Of a stretch of DNA of 64,000 nt, positions 3,564 through 63,160 are shown in pieces. A program made the translations under genes and the position numbers. The DNA is from Styela clava. Taxonomy: Eukaryota; Chordata; Ascidiacea; Stolidobranchia; Styelidae. Under the pieces are notes generated by a model that made no database searches, was not told the DNA's origin, and saw nothing but the letters and a program-made list of their open reading frames with translations. The stretch covers positions 10,302,974 to 10,366,973 of the forward strand of contig NC_135259.1 in assembly GCF_964204865.1 (NCBI RefSeq). The letters are read 5' to 3'. The number at the start of each line of letters is the position of its first letter. Within the stretch, counting starts at the first letter, position 1.

Positions 3564-4409
3564 ATGGAAGACTATCTGGGAGAAGAAGCAGCAAATGTTT
3601 ACACCAAGAATCCGAAATTCCCACCTCATATTGCAGAATATGTAATGAATCGTCTTAAAAAAATAAAGGGCAATGAAAATTTCGAGAAATTTGAACTTGT
3701 TGTGGACGCTGGATGTGGTAACGGAAAATCATTGTTAGATTTTTTGCCTTTTTTCCAAAGATCCATCGGATTCGACGTCAATGAGAATCAAGTTAGAAGA
3801 GCAAAAGAAAGTATAAAATCCGAGACAGCAACATTTTATGTAGGCATAGAGGAATCTATGCTCGTCGAGGACAAATCCGTAGACTTATTACTCAACGTTG
3901 GCGCTTTGCATTTCATGGATCTTGCGACGTTTTTAAAAGAGTGTAGGCGAGTTTTGAAGAGTACTGGGCTTTGTGCTACTTACGATTCTTCATTTTCGAG
4001 ATTGGAAGTACATTTTCCTGTCAAAAATGCGAATCAGAAAACGGCCGACGGTAGTGGGATTCTTACAAGTTATCGAACAACATTATATCGTTACTATATT
4101 GAAGCCAACCACCCCACTGCGGAATGGCTTAACCGATATGAACAGATTTATGAGCGAGTTACTGGATTCAACAAAGAGAGAAATGATGACGTAACATACG
4201 ATTACAATATGACACTGAAAGAACTGAAAATGTTCTTTCTGTCTTTCCCGACATTCAGAAAACATCACAATTTATTTGGGGAAGAATCTGCTCCATTGAA
4301 TATAATGGGAGAAGATTTGAAGAAACTTGTAAACGCTGAAGGAATTGATGATGAAAAGTTGCAACTTCGTTTCACACTGTCAATGTTCTTTTTATTTTTA
4401 TATAATTAA
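3564..4409 (+). CDS. SAM-dependent methyltransferase, array copy 1
   Basis: Predicted class I (Rossmann) SAM-dependent methyltransferase of 281 residues in one coding exon, resembling the Methyltransf_11 / small-molecule type (cytosolic, no signal peptide or membrane segment). Motif I is VVDAGCGNG at residues 46-54. The acidic residue closing strand 2 is D71 in IGFDV. A hydrophobic motif IV-like strand (VDLLLNVGALHF) spans 106-117. The N-terminus (residues 4-23, tyrosine plus KFPP) looks like the usual lid of this family. The start is the first ATG after the 5'UTR acceptor and is shared by all three copies. A polyadenylation signal AATAAA lies at 4625-4630. The substrate cannot be told from sequence. 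Copies at 7552 and 13055 are near-identical in length and sequence. Residue 53 in motif I differs in all three (N here). Confidence 0.93.
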   Translation: MEDYLGEEAANVYTKNPKFPPHIAEYVMNRLKKIKGNENFEKFELVVDAGCGNGKSLLDFLPFFQRSIGFDVNENQVRRAKESIKSETATFYVGIEESMLVEDKSVDLLLNVGALHFMDLATFLKECRRVLKSTGLCATYDSSFSRLEVHFPVKNANQKTADGSGILTSYRTTLYRYYIEANHPTAEWLNRYEQIYERVTGFNKERNDDVTYDYNMTLKELKMFFLSFPTFRKHHNLFGEESAPLNIMGEDLKKLVNAEGIDDEKLQLRFTLSMFFLFLYN

Positions 4410-6262
4410 ATAATGAGGTAATTATAATGTGCGTCTGCGTTCACCGTAAACGTGCATCCAGCAAGAATTTGTTTAGTATATATGCTAGTTTTCTTGTGTT
4501 GAAAGTTAACTCCTTAATTTCTGATTACCTTATCGAAGCATGATAAATTGAAAATTGTGGCTTTGTGATTTTAATTTCGATTCAAAGTCAACTGTTTTAT
4601 TCGAATTGCTCTTGTTAATCAGCGAATAAAAGGATTTATAAGAAATGGGTTATAGAGCAATCAGTTGTTATTAAATCATGAATACTTGAGCATCGGACTC
4701 CTGATGCCTTCATCCTTTAGGCGCCAAATTAACTAATCCAATCAAGATGTTATGTGCTGATGGTCACAACATATTGCAACATATTTAAAATATATAGTAA
4801 TATACCATATATAAAAAGTTATTGAAAAATACACAAAGAACACAATTGTCGACTCTCTTGTTGAACGTTTTTTCGCGTATCGTGTCTCGGGAAAGTCGAT
4901 TACTCAGAGTTACTCAGTTATATACTGCAGTAATTTTGACGTAAAACCCTTTTGAATAGTTTCAACGCATAAAGGCTTAAAGTCCTATTTGTATGTAACT
5001 AAAATTCAATACATCGAATATATCATACATCCACCAACAAATAATTTACATATATATATATAGAAAAGATGGAAATGCAGAAAAGTATTGCAAAAGTAAA
5101 AGTTACACGATAAGTTTTCATTGTGTATTCATATATCTATGTTCATCTCTCAAAAAGCTTATGCTATCGTTTCAGTTATTTCGAAATGATCGAATTATAA
5201 TCCAAATTAATTAATAGTTGTTACTGGGTATACAATTTTTTTGTGAATTTTGATGTTTGAAATATTTAACATGACGAGACGTTCACAGCCAATGACCAAA
5301 ACATTTTGCTGTAATTCTTAGGTACTTTGGTAACTTGGTATCCCTTTTGTAACTTCTAAATATGCTTGAAAACGATGTTGTCATTATATTTTTCCAGCGT
5401 ATTTTTCTAATTCTTTTATCGTGCTTTCGTTCTTGCCCTTGAGCGATCTTTTCAGTATCACAGAGAGTCTTAATATTGAGCGATCCACGCCACCAGGAAT
5501 AACAATGTCAAGGAGAAATGAGAGTCAAATTTGAACTCTGAAGAGAACGTGGCACAGCGACGAGCGCACTTTTTTTAGCGCTGCCGTTAGTCAGCGGACG
5601 TTAGGAAGTGATTGATTTTTGACTTAGCGTTGCAGGGGAAAGAACGAAGAGAAGGTTGATTCAGTCCTATTTATATTTAAAATTATTGTGGTATTTTAAT
5701 AAATTTTGGTAGCAAAACACCGAAGTTTAATAATAACAAGGGTTTTTGATTGATCTATCTTATTGTTGTATAAAGTGAATATAAGATTGGCATCTAAATT
5801 TTATAACTCCCAATATTCCATTTTTTTTTCTCGCTAATTTTTTGTCAATATTTATTGATCTCAGTAGTATTCAGACATGGTCGACTGCTAACAAATCAAA
5901 GGATTGTTTGGCCAAAATTGATGAGAAATAGACAGGTTTATCGTTCGAAACCTGGAGCAGAATACTGGGCAGGCTGATGCCAAATAAAACGTCATGGTCG
6001 AACGTGGTTGAATATTTTTCTTAAAAAACACGAAATTCACATGGCACTAAATATACGCAATTGCATAGAAGAGTGGGAAAGTGGCAGACTGCAAAAACGT
6101 ATCGCTTGAAAAATGTGCTGATAAAACTGAAACCTGTTGATATAAACCGAACAGTACGTTATTATTATATCAGTTTTTTAAAACATCGTTGAACAGTCGA
6201 TTTTTATTGTATATATACATTATAACTTCGTCCAAATATGAGATCTCTTCGTTGGGTCTACT
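4410..6262. other. Intergenic region with no recognised gene
   Basis: Up to 4898 this is 3' flank shared with copy 3. From 4899 to about 5640 it is A/T-rich sequence in which I see no gene. From about 5640 it matches 8640 onwards in the same orientation, including the motifs gatgagaaatagacagg and aatactgggcaggct. A short segment at 5565-5640 distantly resembles the repeats at 1060-1130 and 6960-7030. Confidence 0.6.
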
Positions 6263-6851
6263 TCATCCACGTCTACGAAGAGAAGGAAACCTGGAACGAT
6301 TTCGTCCACCTGTAACTCAATAGTTAAAATAATCAATGCTATTATCAAACTTAAAATAAATGAACAATTACGAATGTGATACATCTGTCATGTTGACAGG
6401 ATTGGCTAACAATGCCATTCTCCTTGTAAATACATGACACAATCAAAATGTCATCGCCGACTTCGTCACAGGATTTATTATATATTTAATCGTTATATAT
6501 GAATTAGGATTAACACATATATTTTATGTTGAATTCAAAAAGATCCATATATAGAATGATAAAAATATGTATGTGTTTGTTAATTCAATTAGATACTTTA
6601 TTATGACAAAGTTAAGTTTAGTCTTAATATTTAGTTCTATGCATAACGGAACATATATTGTGGTACATTTTACAGGACATAGTACATTCTTTTCATGTGA
6701 TTGGCAAAGATAATTTTATACGTCATGATTACGTACAAACTAGCTATAACAGTGATTTCATGTATTCAACTAATAATTTGATACCTTTAATCGATGTAAT
6801 CCACAGCACCAACACTATGAAAACGTCGATTTTTCTCCAGATAGAACCCAT
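6263..6851 (-). CDS. Predicted short secreted Arg-rich peptide gene, copy A
   Basis: Two-exon minus-strand model, not recognised from any family I know. Exon 1 is 6851..6785: ATG, 22 codons, then split codon G|GT at donor GTATC. It encodes MGSIWRKID and a hydrophobic segment VFIVLVLWI, a plausible signal peptide. Exon 2 is 6309..6263, after acceptor TTACAG, and ends at TGA. The product is 37 residues with tail GGRNRSRFPSLRRRG, which holds 6 arginines and no acidic residue. AATAAA on the minus strand lies at 6208-6203, about 55 nt past the stop. Copy B (9250-9815) keeps the start, both splice sites, the phase, the TGA and the polyadenylation signal, and differs in exon 2 by a 3-bp in-frame gap. 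Cautions: the donor is weak, D9 sits just before the hydrophobic core, and the peptide is very short. A cationic antimicrobial or signalling peptide is inference only. Confidence 0.42.
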
Positions 6852-6951
6852 TTCTCTTATGGTAGTAGCAATCAGTCTTTGCCTCTTAAAAAAACTTGCT
6901 CAAGGATTAACACGACGGGAAATCGAGTTCATAGAGAAAGAAAACTAAGAA

Positions 6952-7551
6952 GAGAGTGGTGCATTTTCCTTAGCCTTACCGTTAGTACAGTTTTATAAAC
7001 TGTAAAGGATGTGATTGGTTATAGGCATAATCTAACAGCGAGTACATGATGAAGAAAGTAGAGACGATTTAATTCATTTCCAGATTCTTTCGATATTTTA
7101 TGCATTTTAAATCAGAGAAAAAAACTGCCAACAGTTAGAAATTAAGCCACGCTCTACATCTCCTTCAAGCTCGTTTTTGCTTCGATTACAAATGCCACGG
7201 CGTTGGGGAAGGCAGTTTGTTTGGCTTTGTATGTACATTTTATTTTTATTTTTAGAGCTAATTTCAGAATTATTTATAAGGAAAACAAAATTAATATTTA
7301 GTTGTTGTATCCAGTTATTAGTATTTATTTAGTTGGGTTAAGGAAGTTTGTTCGGCATTGAATGTACCTTCATTTTTCTATCAGAGCTAATTTTTCATAT
7401 AACATGTATAACGAAAGCAAAATTAGCATTTATCTTTATTGTATATTTTGATTATTAAATAATTACAAAATATTTCAAATGAGTACTTTTTAAATCTTTT
7501 TTTTAGGATTGTGGTTTGATTCAAACTATATCCAGTTAGTTAAATAAAATA
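6952..7551 (+). promoter_or_regulatory. Methyltransferase 2 upstream region: chimeric promoter with duplicated intron segment
   Basis: Bases 6952-7130 match 1048-1225 rather than the region directly upstream of copies 1 and 3. The join to methyltransferase-type 5' sequence lies near 7125. The TATA-like motif is degraded (ctctacatctcc instead of ctatatatatcc). The matching donor position reads gttggggaagg and has lost GT. About 125 bp downstream the donor and intron start are repeated (gttgggttaagg near 7333, then gtttgttcggc), so part of the 5'UTR intron is duplicated in 7200-7400. The acceptor TTTTAG ends at 7506. Confidence 0.5.
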
Positions 7552-8397
7552 ATGGAAGACTATCTGGGAGAAAAAGCAGCAAATGTTTACACCAAGAATC
7601 CGAAATTCCCACCTTATATTGCAGAATATGTAATGAGACGTCTTAAAAAAATAAAAGGCAATGAAAATTGCGACAAATTTGAACTTATCATGGACGCTGG
7701 ATGTGGCCAGGGCAAATCATTATCAGATTTTTTGCCCTTTTTTCAAAGATCCATCGGATTTGACGTCAGTGAGAATCAAGTTAGAAAAGCAAAAGAAAGA
7801 ATAAAATCTGACACAGCAACATTTTATGTAGGCAGAGAGGAATCTATGCTCGCCGAGGACAAATCCGTTGACTTATTACTCAACGTTGGCGCTTTGCATT
7901 TCATGGATCTAGCGATGTTTTTAAAAGAGTGTAGACGAGTTTTGAAGAGTACTGGGCTTTGTGCTATTTACGATTCCTCATTTTCGAGATTGGAAGTAAA
8001 TTTTCCTGTCAAAAATGCAAATCAAATGTCGGCCGACGCTAGTGATATTCTTACAAGTTATCGAACAACATTACATTGTCACTATATTGAAACCAAGCAC
8101 CCCTCTGCAGAATGGTTCAACCGATATGAACAGATTTATGAGCGAGTTACTGGATTCAACAAAGATAGAAATGATGACGTAACATACGATTTCAATATGA
8201 CACTGAAAGAACTGAAAATGTTCTTTTTGTCTTTCCCGACATTCAGAAAACATCACAATTTGTTTGAGGAAGATTCTGCTCCATTGAATATAATGGGAGA
8301 AGATTTGAAGAAACTTGTAGACGCTGAAGAAATTGATGATGAAAAATTGCAACTTCGTTTCACACTGTCAATGTTCTTTATATTTTTATATAATTAA
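7552..8397 (+). CDS. SAM-dependent methyltransferase, array copy 2
   Basis: 281-residue paralogue of the gene at 3564, also intronless in the coding part. Motif I is IMDAGCGQG (residues 46-54), so the variable residue 53 is Q. D71 and the motif IV-like strand are kept. The reading frame is intact with no stop or frameshift and ends in the same FLYN-stop as the other copies. Substitutions are scattered and mostly conservative, which suggests the protein is still under constraint. AATAAA lies at 8575-8580. The 5' region differs from its sisters: lost TATA-like box and a rearranged 5'UTR intron. This copy may therefore be expressed differently or weakly. The substrate is unknown. Confidence 0.9.
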   Translation: MEDYLGEKAANVYTKNPKFPPYIAEYVMRRLKKIKGNENCDKFELIMDAGCGQGKSLSDFLPFFQRSIGFDVSENQVRKAKERIKSDTATFYVGREESMLAEDKSVDLLLNVGALHFMDLAMFLKECRRVLKSTGLCAIYDSSFSRLEVNFPVKNANQMSADASDILTSYRTTLHCHYIETKHPSAEWFNRYEQIYERVTGFNKDRNDDVTYDFNMTLKELKMFFLSFPTFRKHHNLFEEDSAPLNIMGEDLKKLVDAEEIDDEKLQLRFTLSMFFIFLYN

Positions 8398-9249
8398 ATA
8401 ATGAGGTAATTATAATGTGCGTCTGCGTCCACCGTAAACGTGCAACCAACTTTACCGTCAGTTAACTGATATTCAAACGACGGCTATAATCAAAATAAGT
8501 TTAGTAGCCTATATATATATATATGCTAGAATAATAGTCACTTATTTCATTCGAATTGCTTTTGTTATTCAGTGAATAAAATGATTTAAAAGAAAGATGT
8601 TACAGAATAATCAGATTTCATCAAATCCCGAATACTTGTGGAGGTTGCTTCATTCCTATTTATAATCTAGAATATTGTGGTATTTAAAAAATTTTGCTAT
8701 AGTAAAACTCCGCAGTTTTATGACATTAATAATATAAATTCCATAATATCATGATGACAAGTCTTTTTGATTGATTCCTCTTATATAAAGTAAATATATA
8801 TAAGATTCGCATCGAAATTTTATAACTTCCAATATTCCAGGATTTTGTGAGTTTTTTCTTGCCAATATTCTTGTCATTAATTTTTATCTCAGTAGTATTC
8901 AATCATGTTCGACTGGTATCGAACGAAAGGCTTCTTTGGCCAAAATTGATGAGGCCAAAATTAGTGAGAAATATACAGGTATATCGTTCAAAACCTGGCG
9001 GAGAATACTGGGCAGGCTAATGCCAAATAAAACGTCATGGTCGAACTGGGTTAAATGTTTGTTTTTTAAACACGAAATTCACTTAACACTAGAAGTGCAG
9101 ACATAACTATAATCAGTTGATATATAACCGAATAGATCGTTTTTTCATTACATAAGTTTTTTTTAAAACATCGTTGAATAGTCGATTTTTATTATATACA
9201 TTATGATTTCTTCAAAGTATGAGATCACTTTGTTGAGTCTTCATCATCT

Positions 9250-9815
9250 TCACATACGTCTACAAAAAGTACGATACCATGGACGTCGTCTACCTGTAAA
9301 GCAAAAGTTGAAACAATCAAATACTATTATAAAATCTAATATAGATGAACAATTACAGAAGTGATACATCTGTCATGTTAACAGAATCAGATAAAAATGC
9401 CATTCTTCGTGTAAATACATAACTCAATCAAAATGTCATCGCCGACTTCGTCACAGGATTTATTTTATATTAACTGTTATATGATGTTCGGGTTCACACA
9501 TATATTTTTATATCGAATTCAAAAGTATCCATATATAGAATACAAAAAAAATTGTGCTCGTTAATTCAATTAGTTATTTTATTATGAAAAAGTTAAGTCT
9601 AGTCTTAATATTTACTTCTACGGATAACGGAACATTTATTGTGGTAAGTTTTTCAGGAAACAGTACATTTATTTCCCGTTATTGGTAAAGATAATATTGT
9701 ACGTCATGATTAATTACAATCGAGCTACATCAAGTTGTAATTTGGTACCTTCAATCGATGCAATCCATAGCATCAACGCCATGAAAACGGCGATCTTTCT
9801 CCAAATAGGACCCAT
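9250..9815 (-). CDS. Predicted short secreted Arg-rich peptide gene, copy B
   Basis: Paralogue of 6263-6851. Exon 1 is 9815..9749: 22 codons, MGPIWRKIA then hydrophobic VFMALMLWIASI, a better signal peptide than copy A. Donor GTACC. Exon 2 is 9293..9250, after acceptor TTACAG, and ends in TGA. The product is 36 residues with tail GRRRPWYRTFCRRM: 6 arginines, two aromatics (W, Y) and one cysteine, no acidic residue. AATAAA (minus) lies at 9193-9188. An in-frame ATG 12 bp upstream would add MTIE but is absent from copy A. Exon 2 looks more diverged between copies than the neighbouring intron, as seen in fast-evolving defence peptides, although I did not compute rates. If exon 1 is not spliced, the frame would instead run 13 more residues past the donor and stop. 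Confidence 0.45.
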
Positions 9816-9869
9816 TTCTATTGTCATAGTTTTTACTTATCAAAAAACTAAAAAAAAAACATAAATTAC

Positions 9870-13054: not shown

Positions 13055-13900
13055 ATGGAAGACTATCTGGGAGAAGAAGCACCAAATGTTTACACCAAGA
13101 ATCCAAAATTTCCACCTCATATTGCAAAATATGTAATCAGTCGTCTTAAAAAAATAAAGGGCAATGAAAATTGCGACAAATTTGAACTTGTCATGGACGC
13201 TGGATGTGGCCACGGCAAATCATTATTAGATTTTTTGCCCTTTTTTCAAAGATCCATCGGGTTTGACGTCAGTGAGAATCAAGTTAGAAAAGCAAAAGAA
13301 AGAATAAAATCTGACACAGCAACATTTTATGTAGGTAGAGAGGAATCTATGCTCGCCGACGACAAATCCGTAGACTTATTACTCAACGTCGGCGCTTTGC
13401 ATTTCATGGATCTAGCGATGTTTTTAAAAGAGTGTAGGCGAGTTTTGAAGAGTACTGGGCTTTGTGCTATTTACGATTCTTCATTTTCGAGATTGGAAGT
13501 ACATTTTCCTGTCAAAAATGCGAATCAAAAATCGGCCGACGGTAGTAATATTCTTACAAGTTATCGAACAACATTACATCGTCACTATATTGAAACCAAG
13601 CATCCCTCTTCGGAATGGTTCAACCGATATGAACAGATTTATGAGCAAGTTACTGGATTCAACAAAGAGAGAAATGATGACGTAACATACGATTACGATA
13701 TGACACTGAAAGAACTGAAAATGTTCTTTTTGTCTTTCCCGACATTCAGAAAACATCATAATTTGTTTGAGGAAGAAACTGCACCATTGAATATAATGGG
13801 AGAAGATTTGAAGAAACTTGTAGACGCTGAAGGAATTGATGATGAAAAGTTGCAACTTCGTTTCACACTGTCAATGTTTTTTATATTTTTATATAATTAA
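13055..13900 (+). CDS. SAM-dependent methyltransferase, array copy 3
   Basis: 281-residue paralogue of 3564 and 7552. Motif I is VMDAGCGHG (residue 53 is H), D71 is present, and the frame is intact to FLYN-stop. Its flanks are closest to copy 1 because both sit in the larger block A/C duplication. In the coding region it shares several residues with copy 2 rather than copy 1 (for example NCDKF near residue 40 and VSENQVRKAKERI at 72-84), which hints at gene conversion or an unequal duplication order. AATAAA is at 14116-14121. Same cautions on substrate as copy 1. Confidence 0.92.
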   Translation: MEDYLGEEAPNVYTKNPKFPPHIAKYVISRLKKIKGNENCDKFELVMDAGCGHGKSLLDFLPFFQRSIGFDVSENQVRKAKERIKSDTATFYVGREESMLADDKSVDLLLNVGALHFMDLAMFLKECRRVLKSTGLCAIYDSSFSRLEVHFPVKNANQKSADGSNILTSYRTTLHRHYIETKHPSSEWFNRYEQIYEQVTGFNKERNDDVTYDYDMTLKELKMFFLSFPTFRKHHNLFEEETAPLNIMGEDLKKLVDAEGIDDEKLQLRFTLSMFFIFLYN

Positions 13901-47995: not shown

Positions 47996-49249
47996 TGAAT
48001 ATTTTTTTTCAATCAACAGGATCTTCACATTTGTTAGGGGTATGAAGCCTTTTCATATTTTCAAGTTAGGTCAGGTTGTTATCGGTCTTGAACTGTTCCA
48101 GAAGGTTTAGTTCGCCTATTCCGTTTCCAACACACGCAATATACACGTAGTATGTGGTTATTCCGGGTATATTTGATATTTTTCACCCACTCGTTTTATT
48201 TAAAACAGCTCCACCTGGAGATTTGGTTCACAGAACTTCAGTAATTTGACTTCGATAATGTTTATTTTATCTAAAAATGAGCTTATTTTGCTTTTTTTCA
48301 GTTTTCGTGAATGCGTTTTTGATTTGTGTTGAAAATGTGTGAAAATCATCTGCGGTGGGTATTCAGTTACATTAACAGTCTGCCAAGTACTTCAGTCACG
48401 ACATCTGTTTCGTATCAAAATAAACAATTGCAATTGAGCGTGATTTTGCGAGAAATGCGTTTTTTCTTCTGTAGCTTTGGATGTAAAAAGATAACATAAA
48501 TATTTTGACAGAAATTAAATCTATCTTGATGGAAGGGTGTTTAGTAATCGGGAGTTAGTAGTTTGGGTTGATCACGAAAAAGGTTGTGATGAAATACACT
48601 TGTTCCACTATATATATAAAGAATAACGGTAATGTCGCTTTAGATGGGATGGAGATTGACAAAGTTTATAAATATGACAGTTCGATTTTTTTCTCCGAAT
48701 ACTGGTCTAATGTTTTTCCCAGTTGCGGGTTCGTTTTAACGTCGTAACCCTGTTGTTTTAGACTTTAAATAGAAGACTGCAAATGGGTCATATGCACCGC
48801 AGCACAAGATTAGCGCGATATTTTTCGTTGAGGAAGTTATGTATTAGATTTATGTAAAGGATGTCAAGTTTAATGCAGCTTACGTAGTAACAAACACTTT
48901 CTCGAATAAGGACGTGTTGTTATTGAGTCCGATGTAGAAGAGAATCTGTTTTTAAAATTTTGAATCCCACCACTGGTGATGGCAGGTGAGAATCACAAAA
49001 GCCCCAAATTATAACTAACCACTTTTGATACCGACCAACCGAAGTTATTAACTTAATTATGCTCGAAACAAGCAAGAATAATTATGAGGCTTAGAAGAAG
49101 CATTAGCATTCAAGTATCAGGCTATGTCTCCGTCGTATTTAGTTCTATTTCACGAAATAAAATCAAGATCATATTTCGAAGCACATTTCGGGGGTTTGAT
49201 CGAATACATTTGGGTATTTTGTAGTATTATCAACTATATTTACAACACT
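47996..49249. other. 5' flank of collagen-discoidin gene 1, conserved with 58670-59922
   Basis: No gene is recognised. Long blocks match the flank of gene 2, including ttccgggtatatttgatatt and gggttgatcacgaaaaag. Some conservation may reflect promoter function, but recent duplication alone explains it. No clear TATA box was identified. Confidence 0.5.
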
Positions 49250-51763
49250 ATGAGGTATACCCTAATAAAAACTGGCATTGGTTTTGTCTTGCTTGCACAA
49301 TGTGTGTTGTGTCACATGCCTACGGTATATGAATTCTGTACTCACGTTGTCGCAAATGGGGAACCCATTCATCAATTGACATGTGATTCAAGTCAATGCC
49401 AGGGTAGGCCCGGTAAAACAGGACCTCACGGACCAAAAGGCTCTATTGGCGTTAAAGGAGAGAAAGGTGAAAGGGGCACGACAGAACATCTGGTGGAAGA
49501 AAGAATTAGCGAATTAGAAGGTGAGCGAAGCAAAACTGGCGTATCTGGGTGGTTCAGCAAGAATTAGATTATGTTTATTTTCTTATCTACGATATGACGT
49601 TATTTCGCGGCTTTCGAATATGACGATAAAGCTTTATGGTTCTAGATCTACTTTCCAGTTTTCCATCTTTTTTTAACACCAAGTATGTACAACGATTATA
49701 CTAAACCTTATAAAAAATACCTACTAAATGTGGGCGAAAATATATATACCTGTCATTGGCCCGTATTTCTTGAAGATATAATTTATCTGTCGAACTTGGT
49801 TTGAAAACATGCAACTCCGTTTTTTTTCATAGACTTCCAAGCCACTACATCACGAATTTTAGAAGCATTGCCCAAGTGTGAGTATTTTTGAAAGAAAACC
49901 GATAAATGATCGAATTTCAAGAGAATACGTTTCAATAAAACAATCTCTTGCAGTCCTTGCACCATTCCAATCGCAGCAATTCAAAGCGTCTTGCTCCATG
50001 CGATAATAGTATCAAGTCATTGACTGATGCGAATCTACATAAGCAACCACCGAAATCTTGTTAAACTATTTTCTGTAAAATTTCAAACTATTATTTTTTC
50101 AATATATATATTATTAAAATACCTGAAACGTGTGGACCATCAGCTATTGATATACTTTCAACGAAAATCCTAATTTTCTAAGGCAAGCAATCCGATATAG
50201 TTTAGAGTACGATGATCTCGACCACGTGAATGAATGCGTGACTAATAAGTTCAGCTCAAAATTAAAAGTCAGAAACTATAAATAAATATATATATATATA
50301 TATATAAATCCTTTTGGTATTTCTACATTTTTTAATCAAGTTTTGCATTTTATCATTTGAAAAACAGCCACATACTGCTACATGGGGGTGAGAAACAGAG
50401 ATGTTCCAGATTCAGCAATGACTTCTTTTTCGATTGCGGGTGGTGGATACGAAGCATACAATGGACGACTTGATAATCAGATCAGTTCCGGAAATCATGC
50501 AGTATGGGCAGCAGTATCCAGTTCGTAAAATAATTAACGTTGAAGGGTGCCTGCCTAAAGTGTCGGGTTCATTTTGTCTCAATTGTTTGATTCTCACTTC
50601 ATACGATAGGCTACTCTAACCTTCTACTAAATTAATATTTCTATCCATTTGTCCCACAATATATATTTAACTCGGAACTGTGGGACGCGGGCATCGTTCC
50701 TGACTCCATTCTTTTATATTTTCAAAAACTTTAAATCGGGGGTCGGCGACCTACGGCCCGCGGGACGGATCCGGTCAGCGGAGTAATATAATCCGACCCG
50801 CGACACTTCACTGAAATGCATAACAAACCAGCTGTTTTGACGATTATATTCTTTAAGTAACTGCATTTATTGTGAGACACGTATAGACTAAATTATATTA
50901 TAATCTAACAAGTATAAAATTCACAATTACTCCTTTAATAAGCCTATAATTTTATTATAATTAGACAAATAGCAACAAAACGCAAAAAAAGGTTAAGGCT
51001 AAGGGTTCATGGGGCCGAAAATATTCAAATGGGAGCAATGCAACGAGGGAATAAATCTATATTCTATTCGAAAGATCTATCACTGCTTGATCTTGATTAT
51101 AAAAAGTACCATCCGTTCGGTTTTCAACTTTCTAAAAAATATGTGTGGACCGCCAATGACTTGCAACCCTTAATTTCGACCCGCGAGCGACAAAAGGCTG
51201 CCGACCCCTGCTTTGAATGCTCTGTTCTAATTAGTATTGACTATTTCATTGAGTGGCTAGTATGCTTATGGTATTTTAAGTTGTGCCCTTGATATTTATC
51301 ATTCCAGATCGCCAAGGAGAATGGTTACAGATCGACTTCGGTACTCCCAAACTTATTGGTGGAATCATAACTCAAGGACGACCAATACACAGCCAGTGGG
51401 TTCGATCATTCAAAATATCCTGCGGAAGTTCTACTTCCTCGTTAACGACTATAAAACATAACAACTCAGATAAGGTATACTTTTGTATTTCATATGGCGG
51501 AGGAATATTTATATGCACTTTCCTGAGAACCTATAGTCTGTGTTACATCCACGACAAGACACAAATACATGGGGTACAATATAAATTTTATGCTGTAATT
51601 ACAGATATTTCCCGGCAACCTCGACAGAGATTCGAAAGTGATCAACATGTTTACTGCGCCAATAACATGCAGATATATTCGCGTTCATCCGGAATCCTGG
51701 TATGGACATATCAGCATGAGAGTGGAATTCATTAACGGACTCTGCCATGGCATGGCTCTCTGA
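49250..51763 (+). CDS. Secreted collagen-like discoidin (F5/8 type C) protein, copy 1
   Basis: Five exons: 49250-49520, 49833-49877, 50368-50520, 51308-51474, 51605-51763. Product 264 residues. Layout: signal peptide 1-21 (YTLIKTGIGFVLLAQCVLC), a short Cys-containing segment (C30, C45, C50), eight uninterrupted Gly-X-Y triplets at 52-75 (GRPGKT to GER), a short helical neck (about 77-105, EERISELEG...RILEAL), then a discoidin domain. The domain is bounded by C110 and C259 with VPDSAMTSFS, YNGRLDNQ, QGEWLQIDFG, GGIITQGR, WVRSFKISCG and YIRVHPESWYG. Discoidin domains bind carbohydrates or lipids, and the collagen stalk suggests trimers. I chose the ATG that directly precedes the signal peptide; upstream in-frame codons are not shared by copy 2. 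The exon 3 donor GTTCGT is weak, but it is the only one that keeps frame in both copies. Confidence 0.9.
50737..51210. mobile_element. hAT-like insertion in intron 3 of collagen-discoidin gene 1
   Basis: Ends cgggggtcggcgacctacgg and ggctgccgacccctg. The flanks are ctttaaat (50729-50736) and ctttgaat (51211-51218), one mismatch. The paralogous intron at about 62600-62625 reads cattttaaatgctctg with no insertion, an empty-site record. Confidence 0.85.
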
Positions 51764-58379: not shown

Positions 58380-59922
58380 GATATGAAGTATGTATATACC
58401 AAAAGTTGAATTAATCCCCAATAGTAATCAAGTTGAATCTTCAAATGCCGTAAACAAAATGCAAGTTCTCGAAAAAAACCTCCATTATTTGAAGCAATAA
58501 CCAATAGTGGATATTTAAGATTCACAGCTAATGTTGGTGCCCGTGTTCTACCCACAATGGTATGGATGAAGTTTAAACCATAGTATTACTAAGCCTCGGA
58601 ATCGAACCGAAGTTGGCTTGTTAAATCCGCACTTACCCGTTTTTTGCTTCATATAACTTTTATTATCGGACCGGTATTGCATAATATTTGAACTCTCGGT
58701 ATCCTTTATCCATGCGTGTTTGGAATACTCGCATACACGTTATTTTATGAAGATGTTTGTTTAAAATCAACTGGACCTTCACCTCGTTGGGACTGCGACG
58801 CCTTTTCATATTTTTTAAGTTAGGGACAGGTGGTTATTAGTCGTGACTTCAATAGAATTTAGTTCGCCTAATTTGTTTCCAACACACGCAAAATAAACGT
58901 AGTATGCGGTTATTCCGGGTATATTTGATATTTTTCACCCACGCGTTTGATATAAAACAGCTTCATCTGGAGATTTTGTTTCACGGAACCTGAGTAATTG
59001 GACTCGGATTATGTTTTATTCTATCTATCTCTTCCACCATTGTTTTTATGAAAGTATTTTTGATTTAAAAATCAGCTGCGACTTGTATTCAGATACAGTA
59101 ACAGACTACCAGGTACTTCAATCGCGACATCTGTTCCGTATTTGGTTGCTCTCAAATTAAAGAGCCGATTTGAGTTCAGTTTTTCTACAAAATTTTCCTT
59201 TGCAGTTTTGGGTGTAAAAAAGAACATAAATATTTGAACAGAATTGTAAATCCATGTTGATGGAAAGATGTTTAGTAATCGGGAGTCAGTAGCTTGGGTT
59301 GATCACGAAAAAGAATTTAACAAGATGGCTGTGATAAGGGAAACTTATATATTATATAACAAACAACAGTAATGTCGCTTTAGGTGGAATAAAGGTTGAC
59401 AAACTTTCGAAATATGAAAGTTTAATTTTCTTCTTTCAAATAAGCAAAATTGTTTTGCCTGAGAAAGGTAGGAAAATACGGTAATATCAGTGACGAGGTT
59501 CAGGAAGTATCTTGTGTTTTGTTGTGGTATTCAAATAGACGAGAAAATAAGTTACATGCAACGCAGCTGATGATTAGCGCTATATTTGACCTTTTTAATT
59601 GACTTCTATGCAAAAAGAATCTGCTCTTAAATTTTCGAATCCCATTACTGGTCATGGCAAATGAGAATCACGAAACTCCTAAATTATAACTTACCACTTT
59701 TGATAACGATCAATCGTAGGTTATTATTACCTATTTTCTTGCCACTCAAGAATGATTATGAGGCTTAAGAAACATTAGCATTCAAGTATGTAACTTATAT
59801 CGCTGTCGCATTTAGTTTTATTCAACGGAATAAAATCAAGATCACATTCCTGAGCTCTTTTTTGTGTTTTGATCGAATACATTTGTGTATTTTGTAGTAT
59901 TATCAACTATATTTACAACGCT

Positions 59923-62900
59923 ATGAAGTATACCCTAATAAAAACTGGCATTGTCATTGTCTTGCTTGCACAATGTGTGTTGTGTCACATGCCTACGGTA
60001 TATGAGTTCTGTTCCCACGTTGTAGCAAATGGGGAACCCATTCATCAATTGACATGTGATTCAAGTCAATGCCAGGGTATGCCCGGTAAAACAGGACCTC
60101 ACGGACCAAAGGGCTCTATTGGCGTTAAAGGAGAGAAAGGTGAAAGGGGCACGGCAGAACATCTGGAAGAAAGAATTAGCGAATTAGAAGGTGAGCGAGG
60201 CAAAACTGACATATCTTGATGGTTCAGCAAGAATTAGATCATGTTTATTTTCTCTTCTACGATATGACGTTATTTCGCGGCTTTCGAATTTGACGATAAA
60301 GCGTTATGGTTCTAGATCTACTTTCCAGATTTCCATCTTTCTTTAACTCCAAGTATGTACAACGATTATACTAAACCTTATAAAAAAATACCTACTAAAT
60401 GTGGGCGAAAAAATATATATATATACCTGTCATTGGCCCGTATTTCTTGAAGATATATATCGTCACGCTAATAACCGAATTGCGTAAGTCATTTTTAGCA
60501 GTTTTGAGAAAAACGTAAAAAACTTCCTAATGATTTTGTTATGCAATTGAGAGTCAATAATTTGCCATGGTTCAATTTTTTGATCGTAGCCGGATTTAGG
60601 TTAGTTTGTATGACGAAGTTAAGTGACGTCATAATGACGCACTGTGACTTAGGCAGAAATGTGTCTATGACTTGGGGACATACGCAATTTTGCAACTTCA
60701 CTATATGCACCAGTCCTGAAAACTTAACATTCCAAAAACGAATGTAATTCTCAGTATCTACAATGTCTAATCCCCAAAATAGCTAATCAGTTTCAATTAC
60801 ATTATTTTTTATGTTTAAAAATATATATTTCATCAATATAAATCGTTCTGCAAACCCACCGAAATAAGACTAAGATTAAATATAAAGAATAAAACAGCAA
60901 TGCACCCAATATAAAAGCCAACCAAGGTAAATTGGACTCGGACATTGAATATCACAAGTGAACGTCTTCCTATACTGTAGTAAAAATTCAAATTAATAAG
61001 CGCTGAGCTAGAATCCGAGATGCAAAAACTCGAAAATACTTCGCGGAGGTTATTTTGCCTTTGTGACGTCACAATAGTACTGCGGTAACAATGATAATTC
61101 ATTATGACAAGACAATTACACAAATGTGCATGTCATACTAAATGTCCATTTTTATGGGTTTCGGAATTCTTAAGATAAAATCTGAGTTAACAGACAGGTG
61201 CGCAGCATTACATAAATACCTATTTTATAAAAAACTCAAAATCGCCAAAAATGACTTACGCAATTCGCTTATTAGCGTGACGATATATTTATAATTTATC
61301 TGTCTAACTTAGTTTGAAAACATGCAACTCCGTTTTTTTTTCATAGACTTCCAAGCCACTACATCACGAATTTTGGAAGCATTGCCCAAGTGTGAGTATT
61401 TTTGGAAGAAAACCGATAAATGATCGTATTTCAAGAGAATACGTTTCAATAAAACAATCTCTTGCACCATTCCAATCGCAGCAATTCAAAGCGTCTTGCT
61501 CCATGCGATAATAGTATCAAATCATTGACTGATGCGGATCTACATAAGCAACCACCGAAAGCTTGTTAAACTATTTTCTGTAAAATTTCAAACTATTATT
61601 TTTTCAATATATATATATAATAAAATACCTGGAACGTGTGGACCATCAGCTATTGATATACTTTCATCGAAAATCCTAATTTTCTAAGGCAAGCAATCCG
61701 ATATAGTTTAGAGTACGATGATCTCGACCACGTGAACGAATGCGTGACTAATAAGTTCAGCTTAAAATTAAAAGTCAGAAACTATAAATAAATATATATA
61801 TATATATAAATCCTTTTGGTATTTCTACATTTTTTAATCAAGTTTTGCATTTTTTCATTTGAAAAACAGCCACATACTGCTACATGGGGGTGAGAAACAG
61901 AGATATTCCAGATTCAGCAATGACTTCTTCTTCGATTTCGCGTGGTGGATATGAAGCATATAATGGACGACTTGATAATCAGATCAGTTCAGGAAATTAC
62001 GCAGTATGGGCAGCAAAAGCCAGTTCGTAAAATAATTAACGTTGAAGGGTGTCTCAAATATGTCGTGTTCCATTTCTCCCAATTGTTGTTGTTGTTATAT
62101 GTTTTATGGCGCGCATAACTTTAGTGGTATTTTGCGCCTTTGACCAATTCGAATTTAAAAATACTATACTAACATATAATACAATATTTACAAATATATA
62201 ATTATACAATTGAATCAATTACAATAAGTAATTATTTTTAAACATTTCTGCCCGTAGACAAAACAAATTCGATAACAGTTTCAATAATGTCAACTAAGAA
62301 CTTCTTCCAAAGTCATTCCAATTTAAGTTTTCTGGGCTACTTTGATGGTTATATTGTTGACAATGCAATAGGTAGTGGGCTATACGGTCTCGGGTACGAA
62401 ACACTGTTAGCAAAATTCGTCAGAAGATTCTCACTTAATACGTTAAGCTACTCTAACCTTCTACTAAATTAATATATCTATCCTAACCCAGAACACACCT
62501 TCGTATGCTTACTTTACCCATTTGTTCCACAATATATATACGTGAACTTAGAACTGTGCGACAAAAGCGAGCATCATTCCCGACTCCACTCTTTTAGATT
62601 TTCAAAACATTTTAAATGCTCTGTTTGTATTATTGATTATTACAATGAGTGGCTAGTATGCTCATAGTATTTTGAGTTGCGTCCTTTGATATTTACCATT
62701 CCAGATCGCCAAGGAGAATGGTTACAGATCGACTTTGGTATTCCCAAACTTATTGGTGGAATCATAACTCAAGGACGACCAAAATCATCACGTCAGTGGG
62801 TTCGATCATTCAAGATATCTTGCGGAAGTTCTACTTCCTCGTTAACGACTATAAAACATAACAACTCAGATAAGGTATATATTTTTTATTTCAGATGGCG

Positions 62901-63160
62901 AAAGAATGTTTATACGCGCCTTTCTTGAGAATCCATACATAGTTTGTGTTAATCCACGACAAGACACGGCGATACAATATAATTTTATGTTATATTTACA
63001 GATATTTCCCGGCAACCTCGACACAGATTCGAAAGTGATCAATTTGTTTACTGCGCCAAGAACATGCAGATATATTCGCGTTCATCCGGAATCCTGGTAT
63101 GGACATATCAGCATGAGAGTGGAATTCATTCACGGACTCTGCCATGGCATGGCTCTCTAA
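59923..63160 (+). CDS. Secreted collagen-like discoidin (F5/8 type C) protein, copy 2
   Basis: Paralogue of 49250-51763 with the same five exons: 59923-60190, 61347-61391, 61870-62022, 62705-62874, 63002-63160. Also 264 residues: one codon shorter in the neck (EHLEE versus EHLVEE) and one longer in the discoidin domain (RPKSSRQW versus RPIHSQW). The signal peptide, eight Gly-X-Y triplets, neck and discoidin motifs (GEWLQIDFG, YIRVHPESWYG) are all intact. The differing residues near RPKSSRQ fall in what is likely a surface loop of the discoidin barrel, possibly at the ligand face (inference). Exon 3 uses the same GTTCGT donor. Introns 1 and 3 are longer because of insertions. Confidence 0.9.
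60457..61286. mobile_element. Long-TIR insertion in intron 1 of collagen-discoidin gene 2
   Basis: Terminal inverted repeats of about 50 bp: atatcgtcacgctaata at the left and attagcgtgacgatat at the right, both continuing with the gcgtaagtca / tgacttacgc segment. The matching intron of gene 1 (near 49785) lacks it. Insertion in an AT run suggests a TA-targeting (Tc1/mariner-like) MITE, but exact borders are blurred by the AT repeat. A minus-strand open stretch inside (60833-61123) shows no transposase motif. Confidence 0.75.
62087..62425 (-). mobile_element. Retroelement-like insertion in intron 3 of collagen-discoidin gene 2
   Basis: Gene 1 lacks this segment: there caattg runs directly to tttgattctcactt. 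Its plus-strand left edge is (ttg)n followed by ttttatggcgcgcataac, as expected for the reversed 3' end of a non-LTR element with an (aac)n tail. No coding frame was recognised. Confidence 0.5.

Follow-up and report, generated by a model that had tools for sequence, protein, structure and literature searches.

Can the spacers of a methyltransferase gene array conceal genes too small to be visible as long open reading frames? The question is raised by 64,000 nucleotides of the ascidian Styela clava (contig NC_135259.1, here C13, of the 376.6-Mb assembly GCF_964204865.1; C13:10302974-10366973, hereafter the window), in which an earlier reading made from the letters alone had placed two paralogous mini-genes antisense within such an array, each specifying a hydrophobic leader and a short arginine-rich tail. 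Searching the animal's own genome placed the pair among at least 19 two-exon genes that form one family in two clusters, with a constrained leader and a tail that is variable and always cationic, and the core of this sequence-only reading thus holds. On balance, we favour the view that these genes encode secreted cationic peptides lacking a propeptide, most likely antimicrobial ones.

Both window copies display the proposed structure at the proposed places, namely a 67-bp exon 1, GT and AG intron borders, phase 1, a TGA stop and an AATAAA; the joins 6785^6309 and 9749^9293 are present in the sequence and give the two tails that had been read (Table 1). The spacer bearing the mini-genes was duplicated along with the array (6115-6866 matches 9095-9830).

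At the DNA level, the genome search returned five copies of the array unit: two in the window, one ~0.5 kb to its left and two at C13:13.47-13.48 Mb. In each of the five, the ATG, GT and AG are retained, exon 1 is open and free of insertions and deletions, and the tail is cationic. Querying the same genome with the 23-residue leader yielded 19 matches over its full length, all on one contig; 14 lie in a second cluster 2.4 Mb away (C13:7822062-7891245), and a leader taken from that cluster recovered the same 19 as a second query; the number is a lower bound. We refer to the loci of this cluster 2 as L049-L062 and to those of the window array and its inverted duplicate as L001-L005. Given 17 further genome copies, 14 of which lie in the distant cluster, and the same splice phase and tail type in 19/19, we regard the gene family as confirmed.

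In each of the 19 copies, a phase-1 donor and a CAG/G acceptor (here and below, a slash marks the splice border) give an Arg-rich tail across an intron of 308-606 bases. The tails comprise 14-19 residues, with 5-7 Arg, no acidic residue and a net charge of +5 to +8; examples from cluster 2 are GRRKRFQMLSSRRRR, GRRKRFQILSSYRRRHYG, GRRKRFQILSRYRRRF and GRRGSFQMLPNSRRRTFAG. Preceded by a leader of 22-23 residues, whose basic n-region and hydrophobic core are conserved in the coding frame, they make up precursors of 36-41 residues. The tail finder required at least four Arg and hence was not blind. When acceptors were ranked by pyrimidine content only, the same tail was among the top three in 10/14 cluster-2 copies and 2/5 copies of the array and duplicate; the former count rises to 11/14 with L058, where the site ranks first and the tail is hidden by a TGA lying in frame in exon 1. 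Repeated peptide units were absent from the 19 tails, R-x-x-R sites occur in 11 of them, and helical moments at 100 degrees range from 0.03 to 0.53, being low in most copies and uneven.

A tree of the copies showed a long, supported split between the two clusters. Three pairs share an identical coding sequence (L054 and L060, L059 and L062, L001 and L002). The identical pairs of cluster 2, C13:7822062/7835523 and 7826892/7840353, are both spaced 13461 bases apart, either because the region was recently duplicated in tandem or because the assembly holds it twice. In 13 of the 14 cluster-2 copies, an ATCAG precedes the ATG by ~31 bases and may mark the addition of a 5' untranslated exon by splicing or of a leader by trans-splicing.

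Purifying selection acts on the leader, and in the proposed frame only. In a frame test that moved the observed changes to random columns, applied to exon 1 of 15 copies (L002, L060 and L062 were left out for their identical coding sequence, L058 for its stop), amino-acid identity in the proposed frame was matched by 0/2000 relocations, as against P values of 0.92 and 0.88 in the other two frames. Cluster 2 alone gave P=0.038; for the five array and duplicate copies, scoring by identity gave P=0.21 and scoring by BLOSUM P=0.12. The ratio of nonsynonymous to synonymous differences per site (pN/pS) in exon 1 was 0.24 between clusters, and across seven independent pairs exon 1 had accumulated 14 amino-acid changes, compared with a prediction of 29.3 from the intron rate (P=0.0013).

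The tail behaves differently. The earlier description of the family as rapidly evolving is right relative to the leader, with amino-acid change in exon 2 being 2.3 times that in exon 1 (P=0.010), and does not hold relative to the intron, as the seven pairs showed 24.3 amino-acid changes versus 20.9 expected at the intron rate (P=0.28). A first count of 36.3 versus 20.9 (P=0.0017), which had pointed to positive selection on the tail, proved to be inflated by gap placement and gave way to this codon-aware result. Gap-inflated pN/pS ratios of 0.69 and 1.39 for exon 2 were likewise replaced by codon-aware values of 0.78 in cluster 2 (exon 1, 0.30; overlapping pairs) and 1.92 in the array and duplicate (exon 1, 0.45; exon 2 over six overlapping pairs), the latter of which we do not count as proof of positive selection. 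One pair that adds to the exon 2 change count is L003 and L004, which differ at 8/47 positions of exon 2 and at 1/316 of the 5' intron. Since differences are also raised in the adjoining intron (7/129) and flank (4/78), the 3' part of this pair is probably a patch of gene conversion.

What could the two window copies have shown on their own? Their exons are hardly more conserved than their intron (differences at 10/67 bases of exon 1, 10/43 of exon 2 and 74/453 of the intron), and exon 1 carries seven amino-acid and three silent changes, with 7.5 amino-acid changes expected without selection. The copy 1 donor lies inside the range of ten reference donors taken from clear genes of the window. 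Among simulated duplicated neutral spacers, with thresholds set to the observed values, a conserved signal-like exon 1 with a donor arose in 21/3000 and the full two-exon model in 9/3000. In the real region, exon 1 has a choice of five conserved acceptors, which leaves the exon 2 tail nearly free and not fixed by two copies. Taken together, the AGs of the window could be followed by 9761 tails of 8-40 residues, of which seven reach 38% Arg and are free of acidic residues, and three of the seven begin in the two mini-gene exons; the 19-residue tails of cluster 2 are less Arg-rich (26-32%). A scan of all spacer frames yielded nothing above chance (P=0.92), and a methyltransferase control indicated that codon tests on such short segments have little power. 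On its own, the two-copy evidence is borderline.

Two further candidates within the spacers were discarded. A block of 35-40 identical bases in the intron (6440-6474 and 9425-9459), considered as a regulatory element, lacks 14 bases in L003 and L004 and is also unremarkable, as identical runs of at least 40 occurred in 5.7% of 600 simulations. Short inverted repeats, seven in one spacer and four in the other, might have indicated a mobile element; none could be read as the ends of the duplicated unit.

The sequence-only reading further suggested that the peptide genes had been amplified together with a methyltransferase. This is true of the window array and its inverted duplicate, and fails for the 14/19 copies of cluster 2, a region (C13:7.82-7.89 Mb) to which none of the methyltransferase matches listed in the genome search maps. 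The methyltransferase family is large, with 105 matches in this genome on many contigs, including tandem groups and broken copies. Around its next-closest unbroken members, which are 58% identical (C13:12.35-12.42 Mb), no peptide copy was found in 79 kb. Cluster 2 and these peptide-free 79 kb rule out a general partnership of methyltransferase and peptide; as far as the searches show, the peptides were duplicated with the methyltransferase here and without it elsewhere. The inverted segmental duplicate (C13:13460000-13488500, L007-L009) matches the array at 92.5-96% in four long blocks, its two peptide copies look intact, and its one methyltransferase copy carries a TAG in frame (codon 192 of 281).

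Gene structure, leader constraint and cationic tails can be read directly from the genome; from them, we infer that the genes are transcribed and spliced and that their products are secreted, cut and active. Exon 1 would supply the secretory leader and exon 2 the whole mature part, with the phase-1 intron between them. Signal peptidase probably cuts the leader, at a guess near residues 19-23, and would thereby release the peptide without a propeptide. Arg pairs and triplets, together with a few bulky hydrophobic residues, may then bind anionic microbial membranes; alternatively, the peptide may enter the cell and bind nucleic acid. Because helical moments are low in most copies, we would prefer such charge-driven binding or cell entry over membrane disruption by an ideal helix. 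The family has grown by tandem and segmental duplication, its leader being held by purifying selection and the tail sequence drifting with its charge kept. Short Arg-rich chains with a few Phe, Trp, Tyr, Leu or Ile have the look of many linear antimicrobial peptides, and multigene tandem growth combined with a conserved leader fits defence peptides.

Other explanations have to be set against this one. That open frames arose by chance in a duplicated spacer devoid of genes can hardly be credited any longer: it drew on the borderline evidence of two copies and was overturned by the further ones, that is, by 19 copies with codon-specific leader conservation and a consistent splice phase. Somewhat harder to dismiss, if still unlikely, is that the window copies are decayed relics carried in the methyltransferase array and that the family works only in the cluster at 7.82-7.89 Mb. 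Under the same scoring, donors reach 1.01 (L001, L002) or -1.73 (L003, L004, L005) in the array and duplicate versus 2.35-4.57 in cluster 2, where they read GTAGGA (8/14), GTAAGA (5/14) or GTATAG (1/14); the pN/pS ratios of both exons are higher than in cluster 2 (0.45 and 1.92 versus 0.30 and 0.78), and exon 1 has changed between the window copies as expected without selection. Decay, however, would not readily leave the ATG, the open and indel-free exon 1, GT, AG, stop and charge intact in 5/5 copies that differ by up to 18%, nor restrict the two exon 2 indels to 3 and 6 bases. We regard as similarly doubtful that the family is real and its peptides are signals, such as a neuropeptide or a gamete or settlement cue, with the Arg runs serving as processing sites or receptor contacts. 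Short secreted peptides are commonly signals, the tails are not clearly amphipathic and more than half of them contain R-x-x-R, but 19 tails that drift near the intron rate with their charge kept, and that are free of repeated units, fit poorly to the ligand of a specific receptor.

A number of observations do count against the antimicrobial family we prefer. None of the ten reference donors scores as low as GTACCA, the donor of window copy 2, L003 and L004. Exon 2 taken alone shows no significant codon constraint, the proposed frame giving P values of 0.10 and 0.21 in cluster 2, and a classical amphipathic helix is not supported. Drift alone keeps at least five Arg and no acidic residue in 3-12% of stop-free simulations at 40-50% change, and charge retention across the clusters speaks only weakly for selection. 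The phase-0 frame of exon 2, which is acidic, is better kept than the proposed one in the array and duplicate, both by identity (P=0.041 versus 0.98) and by BLOSUM (P=0.034 versus 0.81; five copies, gap columns dropped), and is conserved between the two window copies (P=0.017). In cluster 2, the block right after the proposed stop also follows phase 0 (DELI[KE]NTI, P=0.024). No other part of the 3' region is as conserved as this block, GATGAACTYATCRAGAAYACNATTT (L049-L062, ~25 bases), which has 6/24 variable columns versus 29/68 downstream and 34/42 in the adjoining intron; a plain alternative is that it represents a 3' untranslated element. Exon 1 could accordingly be real and the true product lie in the phase-0 frame, reached via another leader, donor or acceptor, with the Arg-rich frame as its mere shadow. 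The acceptor TCGTAG/AC would join exon 1 in phase to DVDEVDPTK, and in L001-L004 its pyrimidine tract is the better one. Cluster 2 nevertheless weakens this reading, which we retain as a rival and consider improbable. The phase-0 frame is cut after seven residues in 3/14 of its copies (L054, L056, L060) and shifted in L053, and therefore cannot be the product of all copies, whereas the Arg-rich tail is open in 19/19; block 1 of cluster-2 exon 2 reverses the order of the two frames (phase 0, P=0.71; proposed frame, P=0.10); and the conserved donor of exon 1 with the common CAG/G acceptor produces the proposed phase and does not reach phase 0. More remote still is a use of exon 2 in both frames: joined to the leader, it would yield the cationic peptide, and with a different leader or splice an acidic one (VDE..FVDVDE / ..DELIKNTI). 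One short gene would then supply an Arg-rich effector and an acidic neutralising partner from the same bases. Other antimicrobial precursors carry the acidic partner as a propeptide in one chain.

Do known peptide systems accommodate the family? Four precursors searched against Pfam gave best E values of 0.086 (Ferric_reduct) and 0.13 (GPR15L), both under the cut-off; the same number searched against NCBIfam, and one searched against the PDB, returned no match. Six peptide strings of the family were not found in the literature searched, and no title or abstract start among the top matches listed describes it.

The closest parallels in style are mussel and ascidian peptides. The myticalins and modiocalins of mussels are multigenic and lineage-specific and have Arg-rich linear tails; in subfamily C, Arg amounts to ~31% and is often grouped in runs where the mature peptide begins (PMC12294457, PMC5577615). 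A conserved signal, a variable mature part and a phase-1 coding intron are common to them and the present family, as is a cationic Arg-rich mature peptide after a secretory leader, with 19/19 tails here carrying +5 to +8. Myticalins, however, continue past a dibasic site into an anionic C-terminal extension, of which we see nothing in frame (0 acidic residues in 19/19 tails), and their phase-1 intron follows the mature peptide, whereas here it separates signal and mature part (PMC5577615). The linear cationic peptides of Ciona (Ci-MAM, Ci-PAP, KH.C1.640, KH.C7.94) consist of a signal and a short cationic part, which in some, such as KH.C1.640 (14 residues, +4), is Arg-rich (PMC7387483). Most possess an anionic C-terminal region, unlike the present precursors, which have none in frame; in one Ciona family this region is short or absent (PMC7387483). 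The letters RKIV of the Ci-MAM leader consensus recur in 14/19 leaders here, which is a possible lead only (PMC7387483). As the Ciona screen took only precursors of 50-100 residues, those of 36-41 residues would have been excluded (PMC7387483). Among ascidian peptides, botryllin and the styelins share with our family a signal peptide and a cationic mature peptide; the botryllin precursor, however, has 158 residues (23-residue signal, 37-residue mature peptide) and a long propeptide, for which precursors of 36-41 residues in all leave no counterpart (PMC9966394). Myticalins, Ciona peptides and botryllin thus each seem to depart from the present family in a defining feature.

The surroundings of the mini-genes in the window are as follows. 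Its three methyltransferase genes are intronless and encode 281 residues each (Table 1). There is also an mRNA-capping enzyme gene and a sugar-transporter-like gene, the latter by a weak match under the cut-off, and scans of the window against Rfam (gathering threshold) and for transfer RNAs both came back empty. A search for glycosyl hydrolase 6 (GH6) gave one match the size of an exon, above the cut-off (E 1.5e-6), as would suit a tunicate, a group from which GH6 and cellulose synthase genes are reported (PMC7464555); a COX1 search, intended to reveal the mitochondrial code, returned no match. Two paralogous genes at 49088-51732 and 59854-63157 probably encode a secreted protein: an F5/8 type C domain scored above the cut-off in the former and was judged by eye from the translation in the latter, and a short collagen-like stretch in the pair stayed under the cut-off.

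Table 1 Coordinates of the two mini-genes and the methyltransferase genes of the array (positions within the window)
Feature	Position	Strand	Detail
Methyltransferase gene 1	3564..4409	+	Neighbour, outside the peptide gene
AATAAA 3' of copy 1	6203..6208	-	
Copy 1 exon 2	6263..6309	-	Tail GGRNRSRFPSLRRRG, then TGA
Copy 1 intron	6310..6784	-	Donor AAG/GTATCA, acceptor TTACAG/G
Copy 1 exon 1	6785..6851	-	Leader MGSIWRKIDVFIVLVLWITSIK plus one base (phase 1); homologous leader in 19 genome copies
Methyltransferase gene 2	7552..8397	+	Methyltransf_11, E 1.4e-16
AATAAA 3' of copy 2	9188..9193	-	
Copy 2 exon 2	9250..9293	-	Tail GRRRPWYRTFCRRM, then TGA
Copy 2 intron	9294..9748	-	Weak donor AAG/GTACCA, acceptor TTTACAG/G
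Copy 2 exon 1	9749..9815	-	Leader MGPIWRKIAVFMALMLWIASIE plus one base (phase 1)
Methyltransferase gene 3	13055..13900	+	No peptide copy downstream within the window

With at least 19 genes, products of 36-41 residues and at most 67 coding bases in any exon, the family would probably escape ordinary gene prediction, as well as screens with a floor of 50 residues such as that of PMC7387483. If expressed, it would provide S. clava with a simple secreted cationic peptide that lacks a propeptide and has its leader and effector on separate exons, and the divergent tails would form a natural series for testing what an Arg-rich peptide needs of its sequence.

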